A DNA stretch of 64,000 nt from Alphaproteobacteria bacterium SO-S41 (GTDB taxonomy: Bacteria > Pseudomonadota > Alphaproteobacteria > Micropepsales > Micropepsaceae): contig AP024629.1 of assembly GCA_019670725.1 (NCBI GenBank), positions 2,852,001 through 2,916,000 on the forward strand. The letters are read 5' to 3'. This document shows, piece by piece, positions 7,569 through 36,434 of the stretch. The notes below the pieces were generated by a model. It was not told the origin of the DNA and did no database searches. It saw only the letters and a list, made by a program, of their open reading frames with translations. The position numbers were made by a program, and so were the translations under genes. Position 1 is the stretch's first letter. The number at the start of each line of letters is the position of its first letter.

Positions 7569-9044
7569 ATGACCTTCGCCTATGACAACCGCGCCGCGAC
7601 GACCGACGAGTCCGCGCTCTATCGTCAGCCGCCGCACAATATCGAGCTGGAGCAGGCGCTGATCGGCGCGCTGCTGCTCAACAACGAGTCCGCCAATCGC
7701 CTGCCGGATTTCCTCAAACCCGATCACTTCTACGCGCCGCTGCATCGCCGCCTGTTCGAGGCCGTGCTGCTCGCCCGCTCGCGCGACCAGCTCGCGACGC
7801 CGCTGACGCTGAAGACCCAATTCGACGCCGATCCCGACTTCCGCGAACTCGGCGGCTTCGCCTATCTCGTGCGCCTCGTCGAGGACGTGCCGCATGTCCG
7901 CAACCTCGAACAGTTCGCCCGCGCGATCGCCGATCTCGCCACGCGCCGCGAGCTGATCGGGCTCGGTGAAGGCCTCGTCAACGACGCCTATGACGCGCCG
8001 CTCGACTACACGCCGTCCGACCAGATCGAGACCGCCGAGCGCGCGCTCTATGCGCTCGCCGAACCCGAGAAGCGCGGCGGCGGCTTCAAATCGTTCAAGC
8101 AGGCCGCGACCATGGCGCTGCAGACCGCGGAATACGCGCGCAAGACCCGCGGCGGCACACCCGGCGTTCCCACCGGCTTTCGCAAGATCGATGAAAAGCT
8201 CGGCGGCCTGCAGAAGTCCGACCTGCTGATCCTCGCGGGCCGTCCCGGCATGGGCAAGACGGCGCTCGCCACCAACATGTGCGTCAACGCCGCCCGCGCC
8301 CGACTGAACGATCCTGAAGAAGGCGGCGTCGTCGCGTTCTTCTCGCTGGAAATGTCCGCCGAACAGCTCGCGACTCGTATCATTTCCGAAGTCTCGGAAA
8401 TTCCGCTTTGGGAAATCCGCAAGGGCAAGGTCGACGCCCGCGATTTCGGCCGCCTGATCGAGGCGGTGACGCTGCTCGAAAACCTGCCGCTCTATATCGA
8501 CGACAGCCCGGGCCTCTCGATCGCCCAGATCGCCGCCCGCTCGCGGCGGATGGCGCGCGACAAGAAGATCGGGCTCGACATGATCGTCATCGACTACCTC
8601 CAGCTCATCGAGCCGTCGGGGTTCAAGCGCCACGACAGCCGCGTGCAGGAAGTGACCGAGGTGTCGAAGGGCTTGAAGAACCTCGCCAAGGAACTGGAAG
8701 TCCCCGTCCTCGCCTGCGCCCAGCTCTCGCGCAGCGTCGACTCGCGCGACGACAAGCGCCCGGTCCTCTCCGACCTTCGCGAATCCGGCTCGATCGAGCA
8801 GGACGCCGACGTCGTGATGTTCGTGTTCCGCGAGGAGTACTACCACAAGAGCCGCGAGCCCGATCACGACGACCCCGAATACGGAAAGTGGCTGGAAAAG
8901 ATGAACCGCGTCGGCGGCAAGGCCGAAGTGCTCGTCGAAAAGCACCGCTCCGGTCCCACGGGCTCCATCCGCCTCGCCTTCGACGGCTCGTTCACCCGCT
9001 TCGACGATCTTGCGGATGATGAAGAGCTGCCCGATAGACACTGA
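7569..9044 (+). CDS. dnaB: Replicative DNA helicase DnaB
   Basis: DnaB is the hexameric fork helicase. The protein is 491 residues, a normal length. The N-terminal DnaB domain reads PPHNIELEQALIGALLLNN. The C-terminal RecA-like ATPase has Walker A GRPGMGKTALA near residue 225, FFSLEMSAEQLATR, Walker B MIVIDYLQLI and the LRESGSIEQDADVVMF motif. The gene lies downstream of the ribosomal operon and is followed without a gap by alr. A small inverted repeat (GATTC/GAATC) lies about 45 bases upstream. Confidence 0.98.
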   Translation: MTFAYDNRAATTDESALYRQPPHNIELEQALIGALLLNNESANRLPDFLKPDHFYAPLHRRLFEAVLLARSRDQLATPLTLKTQFDADPDFRELGGFAYLVRLVEDVPHVRNLEQFARAIADLATRRELIGLGEGLVNDAYDAPLDYTPSDQIETAERALYALAEPEKRGGGFKSFKQAATMALQTAEYARKTRGGTPGVPTGFRKIDEKLGGLQKSDLLILAGRPGMGKTALATNMCVNAARARLNDPEEGGVVAFFSLEMSAEQLATRIISEVSEIPLWEIRKGKVDARDFGRLIEAVTLLENLPLYIDDSPGLSIAQIAARSRRMARDKKIGLDMIVIDYLQLIEPSGFKRHDSRVQEVTEVSKGLKNLAKELEVPVLACAQLSRSVDSRDDKRPVLSDLRESGSIEQDADVVMFVFREEYYHKSREPDHDDPEYGKWLEKMNRVGGKAEVLVEKHRSGPTGSIRLAFDGSFTRFDDLADDEELPDRH

Positions 9045-10175
9045 GTGAGCGTCCCCGCAGCCGAATCACTGACTGCCCCCGTCCGCGACCGCCCGGTTCT
9101 GACCGTTTCGCTCGCGGCGATCGGCATGAACTGGCGCACGCTGAAGGACGCTGCGCCGACTGCTGAGATGGCCGCCGTCGTGAAGGCGGACGGCTACGGG
9201 CTCGGCGCCGTGCCCGCCACCGCGAAGCTGCGGGCGATGGGCTGCGAGACCTTCTTCGTCGCCACTCATGACGAAGCCTCCGCCATCCGCACCGCCGCCG
9301 GCCAATCGCGCATCTTCGTCCTCAACGGTTTCCCCCCCGGCGGCGCCGCATCCTTTGCAGCCGACGGGCTCATCCCCGTCCTCAACTCGCTCGACGAAGC
9401 CCGCGATTGGGCCGCACTCGGCGGGCGCCGCGCCTGCGCGCTCCACATCGACACCGGTCTCAACCGTGCCGGCCTCAGCACGCCTGAACTGGACGCCCTC
9501 ACCGCCGATCCCGCGCTGCTCGCCCGCCTCGATCTCGCGCTGGTGATGAGCCACCTTGCCTGCTCCGACGATGCCGGACATCCCCAGAACGCCCACCAGC
9601 TCGCCCGCTTCAAGGCGGCGCTCACGCGCCTGCCCGCCGCCCCCGCCAGCCTCGCCTCTTCCGCCGGGGTCTTCCTCGGTGCCGACTATCATTTCGATCT
9701 CATCCGCCCCGGCATCGCGCTCTATGGCGGCCATCCCTTGGCGCACGGCCCCAATCCGATGCGCGCCGCCGCCGTGCTGACGGCCGACGTGCTCGGTGTC
9801 CGCACGATCCAGCCCGGCGAACCCGCCGGCTATGGCGCGACCTTCACGGCGACCCGTGAGACCCGGCTGGCGGTCTGCAATATCGGCTATGCCGACGGCA
9901 TCCCGCGCGCGCTCTCCAATCGCGGCGTCGCCTTCATCGGCGACACGCCCTGCCCCTATGCCGGCCGCGTCTCGATGGATCTGTTGACCATCGACGTCTC
10001 CAACCTGCCGGCGTCTGAGGTCGGGCGCGGTACCGAAGTCGAGATCATCGGCCCGCACATGACGGTCGAGGACATGGCCACCCGCGCCGGCACCGCGAAC
10101 TACGAAATCCTCACCGGCCTCGGCTCGCGCTTTACGCGCCTCACAACCGACAGCCACTGGACGCGGATCGTCTAA
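9045..10175 (+). CDS. alr: Alanine racemase
   Basis: This PLP enzyme interconverts L- and D-alanine for peptidoglycan synthesis in the cytoplasm. The protein is 376 residues. The PLP lysine lies in VVKADGYGLG near residue 46, and the catalytic-tyrosine region is in the second half (AGRVSMDLLTIDVS, NIGYADGIPR). The start is a GTG that directly follows the dnaB TGA, and radA begins 3 bases after its stop, so dnaB-alr-radA are probably one transcript. Confidence 0.96.
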   Translation: MSVPAAESLTAPVRDRPVLTVSLAAIGMNWRTLKDAAPTAEMAAVVKADGYGLGAVPATAKLRAMGCETFFVATHDEASAIRTAAGQSRIFVLNGFPPGGAASFAADGLIPVLNSLDEARDWAALGGRRACALHIDTGLNRAGLSTPELDALTADPALLARLDLALVMSHLACSDDAGHPQNAHQLARFKAALTRLPAAPASLASSAGVFLGADYHFDLIRPGIALYGGHPLAHGPNPMRAAAVLTADVLGVRTIQPGEPAGYGATFTATRETRLAVCNIGYADGIPRALSNRGVAFIGDTPCPYAGRVSMDLLTIDVSNLPASEVGRGTEVEIIGPHMTVEDMATRAGTANYEILTGLGSRFTRLTTDSHWTRIV

Positions 10176-28540: not shown

Positions 28541-28903
28541 TCAGCTCCTCAGGATCTTCGCCATCGGGCGGCCCTTGGCGAGTTCGTCGATGAGTTTGTC
28601 GAGGATGCGGATCTCGCGCATCACGGGCTGCTCGATAGTCTCGATGCGCACGCCGCAGACGACGCCGGTGACGCCGGCGCGCAGCGGGTTCAACCCCGGC
28701 GCGGCCTGAAAGAAGTCCTCGAAGCTCGTGCCTTTCTTGAATTCCGCATCCAGCGTCTTCTGCGTATGGCCGGTTAGCCAGCGGAAGATCTCGTCGACCT
28801 CAGCCTTGGTGCGGCCCTTCTTCTCGGCCTTGGCGAGATAGGCGGGATACACCTTGCCGACGGCCATGTCGTAAATGCGGTGCCTGGTGGTGGTGGCTTT
28901 CAC
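28541..28903 (-). CDS. DUF2200 family protein
   Basis: The 120-residue protein matches the DUF2200 pattern: [65 protein letters not shown] and a terminal [11 protein letters not shown]. Function is unknown. It is first in the operon with the YCII and GST genes. Confidence 0.85.
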
Positions 28904-29041
28904 GTTGATGATCTCCCGCCGATCGGATGGTGCCTAAGTCTAGGCGGGGCGCGCCGCCTTCGCCAATGCCCCGCCCGCCTCTCGGCGCGCTTCTCATTGC
29001 CGCGCGGTTCCCCTAGGTTTTACGCCAGCGAGGGGGAGTAT

Positions 29042-30982
29042 GTGAGCCAGCCGGTGTTCGTCAGCTATGCCACGGCCGACCGCGCGCAGGCGCTGGCGGT
29101 GTGCGAGGCGATCGAGGCGCGCGGCATTGCCTGCTGGATCGCCACCCGCGACGTTGCGCCGGGCGAGAACTACCAGGAAGCGATCGTCCAGTCGCTGCGC
29201 GCCGCGCGCGCGATGGTGCTGGTGTTCTCCGCGGCCGCCAATGACAGCGACGAGATCAAGAAGGAGCTCTCGCTCGCCAGCCGCTTCCGCGTGCCGGTCA
29301 TGGCGCTCAGGATCGAGGACGTCGAACCGAGCGACGCCTTCGCCTACGAGCTGTCGACGCGCCAGTGGATCAACGCGTTCGAGGGGTGGGACCGCGCGAT
29401 CGACGCGCTGGCCGCCCGCATCGAACAGATCGCCGGCGCGGCGCCGACCCCTGCGCGCGGCCGCTCCGCCAAGGCTTTCTCACTGCGGCGTCCGATGGCG
29501 ATCGCCGCGGCCGGCTTGGCCGTCCTGTCGATTGCTGGCGCGGCGTGGTGGGGACTTCAGTCGCCCTCCCCCTCCCCCGCCCCCGAGGCGCAGGCGGCGC
29601 ACTCCATGACGGTGCGCCTGGCGGGGTTCCAGCTCCTCTCCGCCGACCTGCCGGCCACCGTGCCCGCCACGGTGGATGCCGAGATCGCGGCGGCGTTCAA
29701 TGCGGACGGCGTGGTGGGCGTCTCCACCGCACCCGCCCCGGCGCCGGGCGAGGCGCCGGCCTATGCGCTGGGCGGGACGATCCAGCGCGACGGCGACATG
29801 ATCCGCGTCATCACCCGCCTGACCAACGAGCGCTCCGGCACAACGATCTGGACCGACAGCTTCAACTATGACGGCAACGAGGTGTCGCGCGTGCCGCGCC
29901 GCATCGCGGTGGACGCCGGCAATGTCGTGCGCTGCGGCCTGTTCGGCGCCTCCACCTATCACGCGCCGCTGCCCGATTCCGTGCTCAAGGACTACATGCA
30001 GTTCTGCCAGGGGCATTGGGACACGAGGCTGAAAGAGGGGCGCAAGGCGCTGTTGCCGGCGCAACGGGTCGTTGCCGCCGTGCCCGACTTCTCGTGGGGC
30101 TGGGCGGCGGTCGCCGGCGGCTACTGGAAGGTGTCCTACAGCGCCGAGACGCCTGAGGCCGTGGATGCGGCGCGCGCAGCGGGGCGCGAGGCGGCCGACC
30201 GCGCGGTGGAGATCGACCCCAAGAACAGCGAGGCGTTCTACATCAAGGCCATGCTGGTCGATCGCCAGGATTGGGGCACGCGGGAGGCGCTGTTCAAGCG
30301 CGCCGTCGCCGCCCAGCGGCTGGATTGCGGCTGCGAGTATCATCAATACGGCTGGCTGCTGGTGAATGTCGGCCGGGTCAACGAGGGCGTGGAACGCCTG
30401 CGCCAGGCCAGCGACATGCTCGCGCTCTATTTGTATACGGCGCTCAATCTGGCGGATGCGCTGGTCGTCGCGCGGCACCTTGAGGAGGCGGCGCGCGTGT
30501 ACGACGCGGCCATCGACCTGGCGCCCGATGCCGCCTATGCGGCGCGGATCAAATCGTGGAAGGCCACCCGGATCTGGGACGCAGCGGCGTTGCGCGATCC
30601 CCAAGTGGCACTCCCGCCAGAGCTGCGCGCCGCCCTGGTGAAGGGGTATGACGCCCTGACCTCGGGCGAGGCCGGCGCCAAGGCCGAAGCCGTGCAGGCC
30701 CTGCTGGCCCTCCCGCAGGATCAGCAGGGCGAAGCCGCCACGCGGCTGCTCGCCTCGCTCGGCGCCACCCGCGAAGCGTTCCAGATGGCGACCCCGCTGG
30801 TCGCCAAGGCCTATCCCGGACCGACGCTCTTCTGGCATCCCAGCATGCGCGCCACCTTGGACGATCCAGGCTTCCCTGCGCTGGCGGAGAAACTAGGCCT
30901 CATGAAATACTGGAAGGCGACGGGGACCAGGCCGGATGTCTGCAACGAGGCGACCCCGCCGGCGTTTTGCGGGATGATCTAG
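29042..30982 (+). CDS. TIR domain, transmembrane helix and TPR protein
   Basis: The start is a GTG at 29042 with GAGGGGGAG 5 bases upstream, giving 646 residues. The TIR domain (about 1-135) opens QPVFVSYATADRAQALAVCE and has CWIATRDVAPGENYQEAI and MVLVFSAAANDSDEIKKEL; the Glu of KKEL is at the usual NADase position. One membrane helix lies near 151-171, followed by a Pro-rich linker, a domain with GGTIQRDGDMIRVITRLT, and TPR-like helices at about 340-520. This TIR-TM-TPR layout is found in alphaproteobacteria. The role is unknown; signalling or defence are both possible. A paralogue stump lies at 31922. Confidence 0.8.
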   Translation: MSQPVFVSYATADRAQALAVCEAIEARGIACWIATRDVAPGENYQEAIVQSLRAARAMVLVFSAAANDSDEIKKELSLASRFRVPVMALRIEDVEPSDAFAYELSTRQWINAFEGWDRAIDALAARIEQIAGAAPTPARGRSAKAFSLRRPMAIAAAGLAVLSIAGAAWWGLQSPSPSPAPEAQAAHSMTVRLAGFQLLSADLPATVPATVDAEIAAAFNADGVVGVSTAPAPAPGEAPAYALGGTIQRDGDMIRVITRLTNERSGTTIWTDSFNYDGNEVSRVPRRIAVDAGNVVRCGLFGASTYHAPLPDSVLKDYMQFCQGHWDTRLKEGRKALLPAQRVVAAVPDFSWGWAAVAGGYWKVSYSAETPEAVDAARAAGREAADRAVEIDPKNSEAFYIKAMLVDRQDWGTREALFKRAVAAQRLDCGCEYHQYGWLLVNVGRVNEGVERLRQASDMLALYLYTALNLADALVVARHLEEAARVYDAAIDLAPDAAYAARIKSWKATRIWDAAALRDPQVALPPELRAALVKGYDALTSGEAGAKAEAVQALLALPQDQQGEAATRLLASLGATREAFQMATPLVAKAYPGPTLFWHPSMRATLDDPGFPALAEKLGLMKYWKATGTRPDVCNEATPPAFCGMI

Positions 30983-31477
30983 GCGGCGCGGCTGGGTCCG
31001 CTGCGGGGTGGATTTGATCCTGGAATTTTTTACCCCTCCCCCTCCCCCTCCCCCTCCTCCCTCGGCGCGCAACAAAATTTTGCGGCTCCGGCGAAGAGCA
31101 TCTTCGTTTGTCACCGATGTCCGCGCGCCTAGCGTGACGCAAACGGAAGCGGCGGACAGCGAAGCCATTCGAACGTCGTTATGTGCCCTATCCCCTCTGG
31201 CCGTGCGGTATTCGAACGTCGCTTTTCGCGCCTTGTTTGAGCCGCCAATCCGCGCCGTACGGGCGCGGCCGCGCGCAGCGCATTCGAACCTCGATTGCGA
31301 GAGATCATTTCGGCCCACCCGTCTCTCCTTCCCGCCTCACGCACGCCTGAGCGCGCGACACCGCCGCCGGCGCGGCGATCGCACCGCCCGGCACGGAAAG
31401 CTATATAGGATTTTTCACCTATATACAAGGATTATGTTCAGCCGCGTGGCGGGCCGGTGGCGGCCCGGCCGGCAGGC
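30983..31477. other. Intergenic region after the TIR gene
   Basis: No convincing gene is present in these 495 bases. They contain copy B of the composite repeat (31005-31114), three copies of ATTCGAAC[GC]TCG (about 31168, 31209 and 31282), and an AT-rich TATAGG...CCTATA inverted repeat at about 31402-31424. The same kinds of element occur in the same order around copy A at 5.5-5.9 kb. Confidence 0.55.
31005..31114 (-). repeat. Composite intergenic repeat, copy B
   Basis: Read on the minus strand it opens GTGACAAACGAAGATGCT and ends AAAAAATTCCAGGATCAA followed by CCACCCC, matching copy A at 5763-5863. The middle here has a CAAAATTTTG palindrome and an expanded G/A-rich tract (runs of GGGGGA). 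It abuts the stop codon of the TIR gene. Confidence 0.7.
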
Positions 31478-31843
31478 TCAAGCGCTCTCCTCGCAGGGGC
31501 GGATTTCGAGTTCACTGGGGCCGCTCATCGGATTGGGACAGCGCTTTGCCCAGGCGACCGCCTCGGCCCTATCCTTGACGGTCCACAGCCACCAGCCGGC
31601 GACCTGGTCGCGGGCCGGGGTGAAGGGGCCGTCGATGACGGTGCGCGCCGCGCCGTCGAACGCGATGCGCTTGGCCGCAGAGGTCGGCTGCAGGCCGTCG
31701 CCCTCGCCCTCCTTCAGGATGCCGGCCGCGACCAGCGCGTCGTTGAAGCGGCCCATCTCGGCCCTCATCGCCTCGGTCTCAGGCGTACAGACGATGCCCT
31801 TCTCGCGCGCCTCGGTCGCCTTCACGAACACCATGACGCGCAT
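31478..31843 (-). CDS. YCII/DGPF domain protein
   Basis: I chose the ATG at 31843 (MRVMVFVKATEAREKG), which has GGAG 6 bases upstream and gives 121 residues. The open frame extends further but lacks homology there. The DGPF motif is TVIDGPFTPARDQVAGWWLW. Such proteins are often paired with ECF sigma factors, but none is near. Function is unknown. It lies between the intact TIR gene and the stump of its paralogue. Confidence 0.8.
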   Translation of the reverse strand: MRVMVFVKATEAREKGIVCTPETEAMRAEMGRFNDALVAAGILKEGEGDGLQPTSAAKRIAFDGAARTVIDGPFTPARDQVAGWWLWTVKDRAEAVAWAKRCPNPMSGPSELEIRPCEESA

Positions 31844-31921
31844 GACTGTCTCCATCCTGACTGAGCCTGACAGGAAAACGACGAACGAACGGGCCGGGCG
31901 CCGACACAAGGCGTGACGTTT

Positions 31922-32047
31922 TGCGCGGACGATCCGGGATTCCCGCAACTGGCGGAACAGCTCGGCCTCATGACGTACTGGAAGGCGATGGGGATGAGTC
32001 GGATGTGCAGCGAGGCGGCACCGCCGCCGTTTTGCGGGATGCTTTAG
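31922..32047 (+). pseudogene. C-terminal remnant of a second TIR-TPR gene
   Basis: The frame ends at TAG 32045-32047 and encodes about 41 residues, including DDPGFPQLAEQLGLMTYWKA and a CGML end. The intact gene ends DDPGFPALAEKLGLMKYWKA and CGMI, so about two-thirds of the residues are identical and the DNA matches along the whole stump. There is no start or upstream domain. A tandem duplicate lost everything but its 3' end, with the DGPF gene now occupying the space. Confidence 0.85.
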
Positions 32048-32177
32048 GGGGCGGTGTCACAACGGGAACCTATGCCAGCATCTGGCCAGCTACCGTGCGT
32101 GTCCCAATTAATCAAACACGTATGAAAAAGACTGACGGCAACGGACCAAACGCCTTGATCAAGTCGTGCGAAAAAAG

Positions 32178-33380
32178 TTACTCAAACGCGATGTCGCTTC
32201 TGAAGACACCACCGTAAGAAATCGAACGAGACCGGACACCTTTGCTCGTGACCAATCCATCGGATTTCACATATGCGTCAATCTTGTCTTCAACGCGTTT
32301 TCGCGCCAAATTATCGTCAGACCTTAGCTCTCGAACCAACTCACGCTTCACGCCCTGGCGAATTTTTATACTTGAAACACCATAGACTTCTCTCAATTCA
32401 GGTACTTTGAGCGTAGTTATTTTGCCAAGAAAAATTTCTCCGTTCAACTCGAATTGCCTCAAAGGAACCTCATCCAACTGATCCTTAGCTCGAGATGATC
32501 TATATTTCGTATCTATACGTAATGCAGCACGTTCGCTTGGTAAAAGTAAGTCGACGACACCTAGCCCTTGTTTAAGATCTTCCTCCGAAGGCAGCGCCAG
32601 TTCGGTGGCCAAACGACTGAAGCCGATCACTCCAAGCGACCTAGCGACAGACAGCCGACGCGCGTACTTGACGGTGTCGTCCTGCGCGCGGCCGTCAAGC
32701 TTTAGTAGAGGCTCTTCGTCGGGGTCTGGGTCAACTATTCGGAGTTGCGATCGGCGGCGATCATTTTCATGCGAGATGGCAAGACCGGCGCCAAGTCTCT
32801 GACCTCGCATCCGTCCCACTATATCAATTACGGATTTTTGCTGGATGGCTCTCTGCAAAAATCCATTGCGTGCACTGCGACCAGATTGCGTGCCTTTACA
32901 CTCCAAGACGTGCCACCTTCCGTTGGAGTCTAGAGCAACGTAGTCCGGTGCCTTGCTCGGCCCAACCTTCCTAGCCCCCCTCGGCATTCGCCGCATCATC
33001 CCGGCGAACTGCAGCATGAACTTTCTTCCATCGACCAAGTCTACGAACCCGCCAAGACGGTCCGATAACCACTGAGTGGACATCGCCACACCAAAGTCGT
33101 CACTCAAAATTCCTTTCTGATGTGGGTCCAAGTCTGAAAATGGCATAGTGATCCGGAAGTCCCGCGTAGTATGCAGGGCGACAAAATAGCGGACCCAGGC
33201 CCAAAATCTTGCTGGGGAGGACAACGATCCAGCGGCGGGAGTTGTGACGGAGCCAAGCAGCAACAGAGCTGCGGGGATATCGATTAGTTGCTGCCCAGCA
33301 CCACTTCGTATAAAGGCGGGGGCGGCCTTCGTCGGCCAAGTTGCCTCATCGATAACAACGTCCAAGTTCTTTTCAAACAT
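32178..33380 (-). CDS. PD-(D/E)XK nuclease-like protein, uncharacterised
   Basis: I chose the ATG at 33380 with AGGTG 9 bases upstream, giving 400 residues; an in-frame GTG at 33392 is also possible. The centre carries APDYVAL (Asp146) followed by WHVLECKG (Glu160, Lys162), the D-x(n)-E-x-K core of restriction-type nucleases, then a helix with LQRAIQQK. The N-terminal 130 and C-terminal 200 residues are unfamiliar. Base composition is visibly more AT-rich than the flanks. It is divergent from a Shedu-like gene, which suggests a phage-defence role. The family was not identified. Confidence 0.6.
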   Translation of the reverse strand: MFEKNLDVVIDEATWPTKAAPAFIRSGAGQQLIDIPAALLLLGSVTTPAAGSLSSPARFWAWVRYFVALHTTRDFRITMPFSDLDPHQKGILSDDFGVAMSTQWLSDRLGGFVDLVDGRKFMLQFAGMMRRMPRGARKVGPSKAPDYVALDSNGRWHVLECKGTQSGRSARNGFLQRAIQQKSVIDIVGRMRGQRLGAGLAISHENDRRRSQLRIVDPDPDEEPLLKLDGRAQDDTVKYARRLSVARSLGVIGFSRLATELALPSEEDLKQGLGVVDLLLPSERAALRIDTKYRSSRAKDQLDEVPLRQFELNGEIFLGKITTLKVPELREVYGVSSIKIRQGVKRELVRELRSDDNLARKRVEDKIDAYVKSDGLVTSKGVRSRSISYGGVFRSDIAFE

Positions 33381-33542
33381 TGTAATCGTCACCTAGTATC
33401 GATGCCGGCGCACCTATATCGGGGCAAAATCTTTCCTATCAAGCATAAAATCGTCCAAACATTGCGTCAGCAGGTCGCATTGCCATAAATATAAATACAC
33501 TCAAAGCTTCTCGGAATTCAGGCCAAGGAGCTCCAAGATTGA

Positions 33543-34784
33543 ATGTTCGAGTTCGTCGTCACCCCTATCGGTGCTACTGTCAAATATACTCCTGACATTC
33601 AGGGTCCTGCATGGATAAAAAGCGAGTTGAGCAAGCACGGCTCAATTACCATAAGCCGTGTCTTCAGTTTCCTCGCTGATGATGTCGTCAGCGAACCTGA
33701 TGGCGATCCGTTTGAAGAAAATGCAGAATATGAATTTCGCTTTGCCACAATAATTGGCGAATACCTTAAAATAGAAGGGCGTATATTTGGAATTATTCCC
33801 AATATTTTCCTTCATAAAAACATTCCACTATCAAGAAAACTATTTGCCGCAGAACGAAATGTGTCGATTTTTTTACGAATCTCAAAGATATTGAACTCGA
33901 CAGATGACATAATTATCGGCGGCGACCATCCGAGTGCTATTCCGTACGCTGAATTTGAGAACCTTTTAAAGAAATTTCCAAATACACTTGAATTGGATAG
34001 GTACGCTAACGCACGAGTTGCGGATATTTTAGGAGACTATCTGGATAATATGAAGGACGCACGTCGCGTATATGAAGATTATTTATCTAAAACTAGAGCT
34101 TTTATCAAAGAAAACCCTCTTCGTCAGGAAGAATTACTGCACCTTGAGGTTCATAAATATAAACTGATTCGCAAGACCATTACTGGCTGGCTCACCTCAG
34201 GCGCCAATCGTTCTGAGAGTGACTGGCAAAACATGATCTTACAATTTATACTCCTAATATTCCCGAAGTACGTTGCCGTTCTACGGAACGTTAAAATAAA
34301 TGACTATTATACATCGCCGGGATCAGTTCATCATCGATACATAGATATAGCGCTAATTGACGCATCCGGAAATATCGACCTAATAGAAATAAAAAAACCT
34401 ACTCTTGATATGCTCTTAGGTAAGACGATCTATAGAGGAAATAGTGTCCCAAGCAGGGTTCTGACCTACACGGTTATGCAAGCAGAAAAATATCTCTTTC
34501 ATTTGAATAAATGGGGGATAAAAGGGGAAGAGCTACTAACAAAGAAGTACAGGTCCGCGCTACCATCCGATCTTAAGATTCGCATAACCAGCCCCAAATC
34601 AATCGTTATTCTGGGCAGAGACCGGCTTCCATCAGGAGACCCTGCGTTCGATGAAAATCAAGGGTTTGATTTCGATGTAATAAAACGAAAATACTCAAAC
34701 CTTATAGACATAATGAGCTATGATGATTTGCTTAGGCGTTTAGATAACATCATTGCATCCCTAGAAACTCGCGCTGAAGGGTAA
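33543..34784 (+). CDS. Shedu-like (SduA/DUF4263) immune nuclease
   Basis: The product is 413 residues and strongly AT-rich, unlike the chromosome around it. The C-terminal nuclease region begins ESDWQNMILQFILLIFPKY and has RYIDIALID (Asp268) and LIEIKKPT (Glu282, Lys284), the DUF4263 arrangement of the Shedu anti-phage system. The first ~220 residues would be the variable sensor part. Shedu normally works as a single gene. AAGGAG lies 12 bases before the ATG. It was probably acquired by transfer together with the divergent nuclease-like gene. Confidence 0.72.
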   Translation: MFEFVVTPIGATVKYTPDIQGPAWIKSELSKHGSITISRVFSFLADDVVSEPDGDPFEENAEYEFRFATIIGEYLKIEGRIFGIIPNIFLHKNIPLSRKLFAAERNVSIFLRISKILNSTDDIIIGGDHPSAIPYAEFENLLKKFPNTLELDRYANARVADILGDYLDNMKDARRVYEDYLSKTRAFIKENPLRQEELLHLEVHKYKLIRKTITGWLTSGANRSESDWQNMILQFILLIFPKYVAVLRNVKINDYYTSPGSVHHRYIDIALIDASGNIDLIEIKKPTLDMLLGKTIYRGNSVPSRVLTYTVMQAEKYLFHLNKWGIKGEELLTKKYRSALPSDLKIRITSPKSIVILGRDRLPSGDPAFDENQGFDFDVIKRKYSNLIDIMSYDDLLRRLDNIIASLETRAEG

Positions 34785-34871
34785 ATTATTTAGATATTTA
34801 TTCCTCGTGCTAATATGGATATTACCGAATTTCGGCAGTAGCTTTCCTCTACACTGTAAAAATGCTTTCCC

Positions 34872-36434
34872 TCACTCCCACTCAATCGTCCCCGGCGGCT
34901 TGGACGTCACGTCGTAGACCACCCGGTTGATGCCCCGCACCTCGTTCACAATGCGGGTCGCGGCGCGGCCGAGGAAGGTCATGTCGAAGGGGAAGAAGTC
35001 GGCGGTCATGCCGTCGGTGCTGGTGACGGCGCGGAGGGCGCAGACCTGGTCGTAGGTGCGGCCGTCGCCCATCACGCCCACGGTGCGGACGGGCAGGAGC
35101 ACGGCGAAGGCCTGCCAGATCGTGTCGTAGAGGCCGGCCTTGCGGATCTCGTCGAGATAGATGGCGTCGGCCTGGCGCAGGATGTCGAGCTTTTCCCGTG
35201 AGACGCCGCCGGGGAGGCGGATGGCGAGGCCCGGTCCCGGGAAGGGGTGGCGGCCGACAAAGGCGGCGGGCAGGCCCAGCTCGCGGCCGAGGGCGCGGAC
35301 CTCGTCCTTGAAGAGCTCGCGCAGGGGCTCGACCAGTTTCAGCTTCATCCGCTCGGGCAGGCCGCCGACATTGTGGTGGCTCTTGATGGTGACCGAGGGG
35401 CCGCCGGAGAAGGAGACGCTCTCGATCACGTCGGGATAGAGCGTGCCCTGGGCGAGGAAGGCGGGGGCGCCTTTGCCGTCCGCGGCGATCTTGTGCGCCT
35501 CGGCGTCGAAGATCTCGATGAAGAGGCGGCCGATCGTCTTGCGCTTGGTCTCGGGGTCGGCCTCGCCCTCCAGCGCAGTGATGAAGGTGTCGGCGGCGTC
35601 CACGTGGACGAGCGGGATGTTGTAGTGGTCGCGGAACAGCGAGACGACCTCGTCGGCCTCGTTGAGGCGCATGAGACCGTGATCGACGAAGACGCAGGTG
35701 AGCTGGTCGCCGATCGCCTCGTGGATCAGCACGGCGGTGACCGCGCTGTCGACGCCGCCGGAGAGACCGCAGATGACGCGTTCGGTGCCGACCTGCGCGC
35801 GGATCTTGGCGATCATCTGGTCGCGATAGGCGGACATGGTCCAGTCGGGCGTGAGGCCGGCGATGTTCAGGACGAAATTGGCGAGCAGCTTGCCGCCGTC
35901 GGGCGTGTGGACGACCTCGGGGTGGAACATGGTGGTGTAGATGCGGCGGGCCTCGTTCGCGGCGATGGCGAAGGGCGCGTTCTCGGACGTGCCGATGACC
36001 TCAAAGCCCTCGGGCAGCTGCGTGACGCGGTCGCCGTGGCTCATCCAGACGGGGTAGCGCTGGCCCACCTGCCAGATGCCGGCGAAGAGCGGGCTCTCTT
36101 TCAGGATCTCCACATCGGCGCGGCCGAACTCGGCGGCGTGGCCGCCCTCGACGGTGCCGCCCAGCTGCAGCGCCGTCACCTGCTGGCCGTAGCAGATGGC
36201 GAGGATCGGCAGGCCCGCCTCGTAGATCGCCTGGGGCGCGCGGGGTGAGTTCTCGGTCGTGACCGAGGCCGGCCCGCCGGAGAGGATGACGGCCTGGGGC
36301 TTCAGCCGGGCGAAGGCGGCTTCGGCGGACTGGAAGGGGTGGATTTCGCAGTAGACGCCGATCTCGCGCACGCGGCGGGCGATGAGCTGCGTAACCTGGC
36401 TGCCGAAGTCGATGATGAGGACGGTCTGGGACAT
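34872..36434 (-). CDS. guaA: GMP synthase (glutamine-hydrolysing)
   Basis: GuaA aminates XMP to GMP. The protein is 520 residues, the normal length. The glutaminase domain has the nucleophile in AICYGQQV and a later FHPEV. The ATP-pyrophosphatase P-loop is [10 protein letters not shown]. The dimerisation domain ends PPGTIEWE, intact at the 3' end next to the AT-rich island. guaA 3' ends are known insertion hot spots for genomic islands. guaB lies about 9 kb away on the same strand. Confidence 0.98.

Follow-up and report, generated by a model that had tools for sequence, protein, structure and literature searches.

Gene A, a 400-residue reading frame on the minus strand of the 64,000-nucleotide stretch of DNA analyzed here (the window), is best read, with a better-than-even but far from certain probability and by analogy with known systems, as an immune nuclease that stands alone, spreads by horizontal transfer and represents a new family. 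Some role in defense is likely. The family is rare, undescribed and previously unnamed, and it is unlisted in Pfam, PADLOC, NCBIfam and PHROGs. The features on which this reading draws are as follows.

32178 to 33380, minus strand: gene A, a 400-aa putative PD-(D/E)XK nuclease whose family has no name (from the open reading frame, motif and homologs)
32895 to 32948, minus strand: catalytic motif, running from P145-D146 to E160-C161-K162 and unchanged in all 14 homologs (positions counted from the ATG at 33380)
33096 to 33131, minus strand: second conserved block, LDPHQKGILSDD, residues 84 to 95, where the first core helix begins (positions again counted from the ATG)
32181 to 32714, minus strand: C-terminal domain, residues 223 to 400, alpha/beta and variable (from prediction and alignment)
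33381 to 33542, no strand: divergent intergenic region, 162 bases, 44.4% GC (from the sequence and a sigma-70 scan)
33543 to 34784, plus strand: sduA, encoding the Shedu nuclease, at 40.5% GC; a known single-gene defense system in its own right, outside the proposed one (from PADLOC and Pfam)

The gene A frame runs for 400 codons from an ATG with no internal stop. Its mechanical start is a GTG at 33392, 12 bases farther upstream, and we chose the ATG at 33380 because the starts of the homologs align there. The initial annotation had described a 400-residue protein with a nuclease motif at D146, E160 and K162, and both the frame and the residue numbers are confirmed; the motif reads KAPDYVALDSNGRWHVLECKG.

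The sequence libraries scanned do not recognize this protein. It drew no match in Pfam, PADLOC or NCBIfam (E ≤ 1) or in PHROGs, and the PDB yielded no relative by sequence or by profile. At E ≤ 5, Pfam gave only two chance-level matches across 12 members, each in one member (Ribosomal_L37ae at 0.023 and DUF3139 at 0.21), and the prophage member matches one unnamed PHROGs family at 0.043. Phage records yielded no match, whether queried with the window protein or with its prophage homolog, and E. coli genomes searched in distant mode yielded no DNA match to the gene from the prophage contig (L015) or from Enterobacter (L011). Six homolog accessions occur in no paper of the literature searched, and the motif strings occur in none of the papers listed for them; supplementary tables lay outside that search and may list the family. 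The gene is correspondingly sparse in genomes. Besides its own genome, none of 40 relatives carries a homolog, and it occurs in 1 of 387 genomes of a class sample, again its own. Homologs were found in 2 of 76 genomes of one order, in 3 of 397 of another (one partial, one remote) and in 2 of 397 of a phylum sample (its own genome and one remote case). The homolog records comprise eight plasmids, one viral contig and five genome contigs.

After duplicates were removed, 14 distinct members remained (the window, L003 to L013, L015 and L017). Dropped before counting were L002 (same protein as L003), the second copy H7 on a Methylocystis plasmid, L019 (partial, its frame broken), L020 and L021 (similar in the core only) and the repeat loci L001, L014, L016 and L018. 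The identical L002 and L003 proteins come from one project's metagenome-assembled genomes assigned to Binataceae and Xanthobacteraceae, and the 3.3-kb Binataceae contig (L002) is probably misbinned. The pattern PD[FY]V...WH[VI][LIV]ECKG is kept in 14 of 14 members. Across these, 47 positions are invariant, including D146, E160, K162 and Q181, and so is the block L84-D85-x-H87-Q88-K89-x-x-L92-S93-D94-D95 (LDxHQKxxLSDD), in which L84, D85, H87 to K89 and L92 to D95 do not vary. With the shortened L006 left out (13 sequences), invariant positions number 33 of 138 in the core, 12 of 84 in the N-terminal region and 7 of 178 in the C-terminal domain. In both member pairs with unsaturated silent sites, dN/dS is low (0.058 and 0.060). 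By these sequence measures gene A is under purifying selection, with conservation peaking in the core, and the frame is no product of chance, because 13 other distinct homologs keep the motif and dN/dS is 0.058 and 0.060. The D-ExK residues, whose loss among homologs the initial annotation had named as grounds for abandoning its proposal, are thus kept throughout. One Azospirillum member (L006:7971-9247) carries its C-terminal part in another frame and is apparently a decaying, broken copy.

The predicted structure places these residues where a PD-(D/E)XK nuclease would have them. An AlphaFold2 model built from six sequences (pLDDT 71.8, pTM 0.78) contains helix 86-109, strands 112-117, 147-151 and 156-166, helix 168-181 and strand 193-202, which together give the alpha-beta-beta-beta-alpha-beta core of the superfamily. 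In the model D146 lies beside strand 147-151, E160 and K162 sit on strand 156-166, and Q181 ends helix 168-181; the catalytic D and E/D-x-K of the superfamily are represented in all 14 members by D146, E160 and K162. Foldseek returned nothing for the model at E ≤ 0.001. VIA returned six PDB chains at Z ≥ 2, all low (Z 2.2 to 4.1, below 5): 3dnx (4.1), SPARDA 9vx6 (2.9), BsaXI 8w2p (2.7), lambda exonuclease 3sm4 (2.5), RecE 3h4r (2.3) and SduA 8ps4 (2.2). We take all six to be PD-(D/E)XK nucleases, with fold labels beyond the chain titles drawn from general knowledge, and 3dnx is SPO1766, an MmcB-like protein. Because the six weak matches agree and the catalytic residues are invariant, the protein likely adopts the PD-(D/E)XK fold.

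The presence of 3dnx (Z 4.1), lambda exonuclease (2.5) and RecE (2.3) among the best matches could also point to an accessory nuclease of DNA repair or recombination (like RecB, MmcB or lambda exonuclease) that plasmids and phages carry for purposes other than defense. Such a role seems distinctly unlikely, however, for a gene that all 40 relatives and 386 of 387 class-sample genomes lack, that is enriched beside defense genes and that has no conserved repair partners.

The C-terminal domain is harder to place. Modeled alone it reached a pLDDT of 83.2; Foldseek again returned nothing at E ≤ 0.001, and VIA scored 120 of 997 chains at Z ≥ 2 and none at Z ≥ 5. Its top VIA matches are UTRA/chorismate-lyase-like (Z up to 4.3, rmsd mostly 5.8 to 7.3), labels that in part are our own presumption, and among VIA-listed families this fold is too weakly matched (Z ≤ 4.3) to be assigned; the likeness to the effector-binding domain of GntR-type regulators is a hint only. 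One can imagine a new class of one-gene immune nuclease with a switch unlike that of Shedu. In it, residues ~307-400, for which GntR/HutC effector-binding (UTRA) and chorismate-lyase-type folds make up most of the weak best matches, would detect a small molecule that is produced or changed during infection and free the core, with LDxHQKxxLSDD coupling the two. We give this version little credence.

Near-identical members in different genera have little DNA in common outside the gene, and their neighbors differ each time. Between the Agrobacterium and Phyllobacterium loci (L008 and L009) the shared DNA spans 7994-9255 and the gene 8001-9221, so that the shared ends lie at most 34 bases from the gene; L008 and L013 share 8001-9211 only. 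The Pantoea and Enterobacter loci (L010 and L011) share 7870-9757 around a gene at 7995-9185, or up to 572 bases beyond it. The moving unit is this one gene, accompanied by no more than a few hundred bases. Judged by these boundaries, gene A moves between genomes as a single-gene unit and travels with no obligate partner. In chromosomes, L003 to L006 are lone low-GC insertions between ordinary genes. The plasmid locus L007 has IS elements on both flanks. A 46% GC reading frame of 155 aa (L003:7472-7939), with no Pfam or PADLOC match, ends just before the start of gene A in L003; it is possibly an accessory gene or a separate passenger.

A gene that travels alone, lands singly between housekeeping genes and in L007 is flanked on both sides by IS elements might be a selfish or mobile-element nuclease, homing-like or with a function in transposition or competition, that reaches variable islands because defense islands are generic landing sites. 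Against this, flanks and sites vary by locus with no common insertion target seen, no recombinase forms part of the unit, and the protein is a ~400-aa one with conserved flanking domains under strong purifying selection. We regard a selfish nuclease as unlikely, and the immune nuclease remains our preferred reading.

In the window, GC content is 52.0% in gene A, 44.4% in the gap and 40.5% in sduA, with flanks of 66.8 to 68.3% (chromosome 67 to 68%), and the low-GC patch that holds both genes adjoins guaA. In a genome of the same genus (L045), ~450 bases separate guaA from the next shared gene, a small gene at window 28541-28903; the same interval in the window (28904-34871, downstream of guaA) is ~6 kb long and holds TIR-TPR, YCII, gene A and sduA. 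This is therefore a variable site; no integrase was seen in the insert at 28904-34871. The TIR-TPR protein gene lies at window 28880-30982 (plus strand). Just before the low-GC patch, a fragment at 31927-32053 (plus strand) repeats its last ~42 codons at 66% identity; it is probably what is left of a second copy. The same genome contains further stretches that match parts of the TIR-TPR protein, with nine matches when the protein itself and this remnant are counted.

The initial annotation had noted that gene A stands head-to-head with Shedu, and an intact sduA does indeed lie 162 bases away at 33543-34784 on the plus strand (PADLOC PDLC04067, E = 1.8e-167; Pfam SduA_C, E = 2.8e-29). It had further supposed a shared divergent promoter, which is a matter of geometry only: a sigma-70 scan of 32050-34900 found 4 sites where 4.5 were expected, and none inside the gap at 33381-33542. 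It also raised a two-nuclease module, taken here to mean that gene A and SduA would act jointly, expressed from one divergent promoter region. The head-to-head arrangement at 162 bases within one low-GC insert, together with an SduA 5.2 kb from gene A in L008, speaks for such a module, but the linkage is not recurrent. Shedu adjoins gene A in 1 of 14 loci, the window itself, and lies within 10 kb in 2 of 14. Among the 12 other gene A genomes or records, SduA_C exceeds the cut-off in two, once nearby (W02) and once on another contig (G409). Close relatives of the window SduA occur on five plasmids, none of them among the eight gene A plasmids, and in two other class-sample genomes, both without gene A (the SduA and gene A searches had the same n and filter and are taken as the same draw). 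The two genes also differ by 11.5% in GC (52.0% versus 40.5%), and elsewhere in the family gene A faces PDC-S06 head-to-head (L013) or follows PD-Lambda-1 in tandem (L009). Because linkage does not recur, SduA relatives occur without gene A and the transferred unit is a single gene, the module is unsupported, and we reject it on linkage, GC and transfer boundaries as the least probable reading that we weighed. The transfer boundary, as read from shared sequence, is the strongest point against a two-gene unit. Head-to-head placement beside a known system is, we caution, weak evidence for a joint system, because transfer boundaries here part gene A from sduA.

The other option raised at the outset, an independent defense gene, is backed by the company that gene A keeps on plasmids. 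Of the 7 plasmid loci, 6 have a defense gene recognized by PADLOC no farther than 8 kb away, and the initial annotation's concern that homologs might occur mostly outside defense contexts is not borne out for these plasmid homologs. The neighbors are varied: SduA 5.2 kb off and an LmuB-like ATPase in L008, PD-Lambda-1 95 bases upstream in L009, a dCTP deaminase 0.9 kb downstream in L010, a type II methylase and restriction endonuclease in L011, a PaeR7I-type restriction-modification pair with PDC-S06 in L012, and PDC-S06 head-to-head at 312 bases with PDC-S37/Hhe in L013. At E ≤ 1e-20, PADLOC matched at least 11 of 69 neighbor proteins and 1 of 100 control proteins (Fisher p = 2.5e-4, with two proteins of one restriction-modification system being nonindependent counts). 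Counted per plasmid locus, 6 of 7 have such a neighbor, and no more than 1 of 7 controls does (one-sided p = 0.015), the controls being the opposite-side stretches of the same seven plasmids, one per plasmid. The test used 69 of 95 annotated features and the control 100 of 118. Gene A itself was left out, as were features that were very short, frame-shifted or truncated where a stretch ended, except for one truncated feature retained in the test set. The test counts come from 25 of 47 matching families, with mad3 (4 members), whose matching neighbors we take to be ABC ATPases, and DrmD (1 member, not mapped) uncounted.

The enrichment beside defense genes was seen at the plasmid loci. Among the 11 proteins scanned around the lone chromosomal insertions L003 to L006, no convincing defense neighbor appeared (0 of 4 loci; the L017 neighbors lay outside the scan), and the weak or generic matches there were a caspase at 1e-10, an oxidoreductase and an ABC ATPase that hit mad3. 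In the Agrobacterium locus, immediately after gene A (L008:9419-14204), genes for a SIR2-like protein (weak match), a small protein and an LmuB/SMC-like ATPase lie on the same strand; these are possibly an unlisted three-gene defense system.

One further member is cargo in the tail cluster of a prophage. On the viral contig (L015) a 37% GC gene lies beside the sheath, tube and tail genes of a prophage piece, which on our own reading is P2-type, and adjoins a fragment weakly like a tail-fiber assembly protein. Phage P2 carries the fun/Z exclusion gene in the tail region of its genome. The P2 hotspot treated in passages of PMC9122126 lies between the P2 genes A and Q, a different place from the L015 site. 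The tail sheath gene of this contig (L015:968-2139) is split over two overlapping frames, and the prophage is likely defective or the contig in error.

We propose that the core, made of helix ~86-109 with LDxHQKxxLSDD, the strand with D146, the strand with E160 and K162 and the helix ending at Q181, would coordinate a metal ion and cleave DNA brought in by phages or plasmids. Its two flanking regions, N-terminal (1-84) and variable C-terminal (223-400), would recognize the target or restrain the nuclease until infection, a restraint modeled by analogy on the sensor domains of Shedu, and would thereby set specificity. That the core is conserved and the C-terminal domain variable is what one would expect of a sensor facing shifting pressure, and no partner gene would be needed. 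Nuclease activity, the DNA substrate, the antiphage or antiplasmid effect, autoinhibition and the trigger are all things that we infer by analogy. The present data fit a DNA or an RNA substrate alike, and many defense nucleases act through cell death, so that a catalytically dead or RNA-directed protein of this fold acting by abortive infection also deserves mention; invariance of the complete D-ExK-Q set speaks against a dead enzyme, and we hold this alternative to be very unlikely. If active, gene A would be a compact nuclease with a self/non-self rule of some kind. It would add an unlisted family to the growing set of single-gene defense nucleases, and the near-identical Pantoea and Enterobacter plasmid copies and the prophage copy are ready test material.

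Among proteins of known structure, SPO1766 (3dnx), lambda exonuclease and RecE have the PD-(D/E)XK core topology in common with gene A (Z 4.1, 2.5 and 2.3), but they are smaller or differently built and have no sequence relation to it; to our knowledge none of them is a defense protein. The remote relatives L020 (351 aa) and L021 (497 aa) share a PDF/PDY...H-V-x-E-x-K-G core that is aligned by the 14-member profile, but the good alignment is confined to that core (profile 132-231) and their N- and C-terminal parts differ from those of gene A. PD-Lambda-1 is likewise a single gene with a predicted nuclease domain, and the gene A homolog of L009 lies 95 bases downstream of one. Passages of PMC9519451 describe a DUF4041 protein as a single-gene defense protein with a predicted nuclease domain, and we took the equation of DUF4041 with PD-Lambda-1 from PADLOC. 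The two differ in domain order, gene A has no PADLOC match, and the adjacency was seen once.

Shedu (SduA, with the SduA_C or DUF4263 domain) offers a close parallel, being likewise a single-gene unit of ~400 aa with a PD-(D/E)XK core and extra domains that occurs on mobile islands; the E. coli SduA complex 8ps4 is among the six VIA matches to gene A, weakly (Z 2.2). The two nevertheless have no sequence similarity. BLASTP against the neighboring SduA gave E = 2.2 at best, and the gene A family profile did not report that SduA even with filters off. Neither Pfam nor PADLOC matched SduA_C or DUF4263 in the window protein at E ≤ 1, and Pfam found no SduA_C in 12 members. The layouts differ as well: the gene A core is central and followed by a long C-terminal domain, whereas the SduA_C match in the window SduA is C-terminal, at residues 223-397 of 413. 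Because both the SduA_C domain test and the test of sequence homology failed, gene A is not a member of Shedu. Passages of the review PMC12904381 present Shedu as an autoinhibited nuclease released once its N-terminal clamp binds DNA ends, and EcSduA as a homotetramer in which that clamp senses the ends. Considered simply as an immune nuclease encoded by one gene, gene A would, by analogy, work like Shedu.
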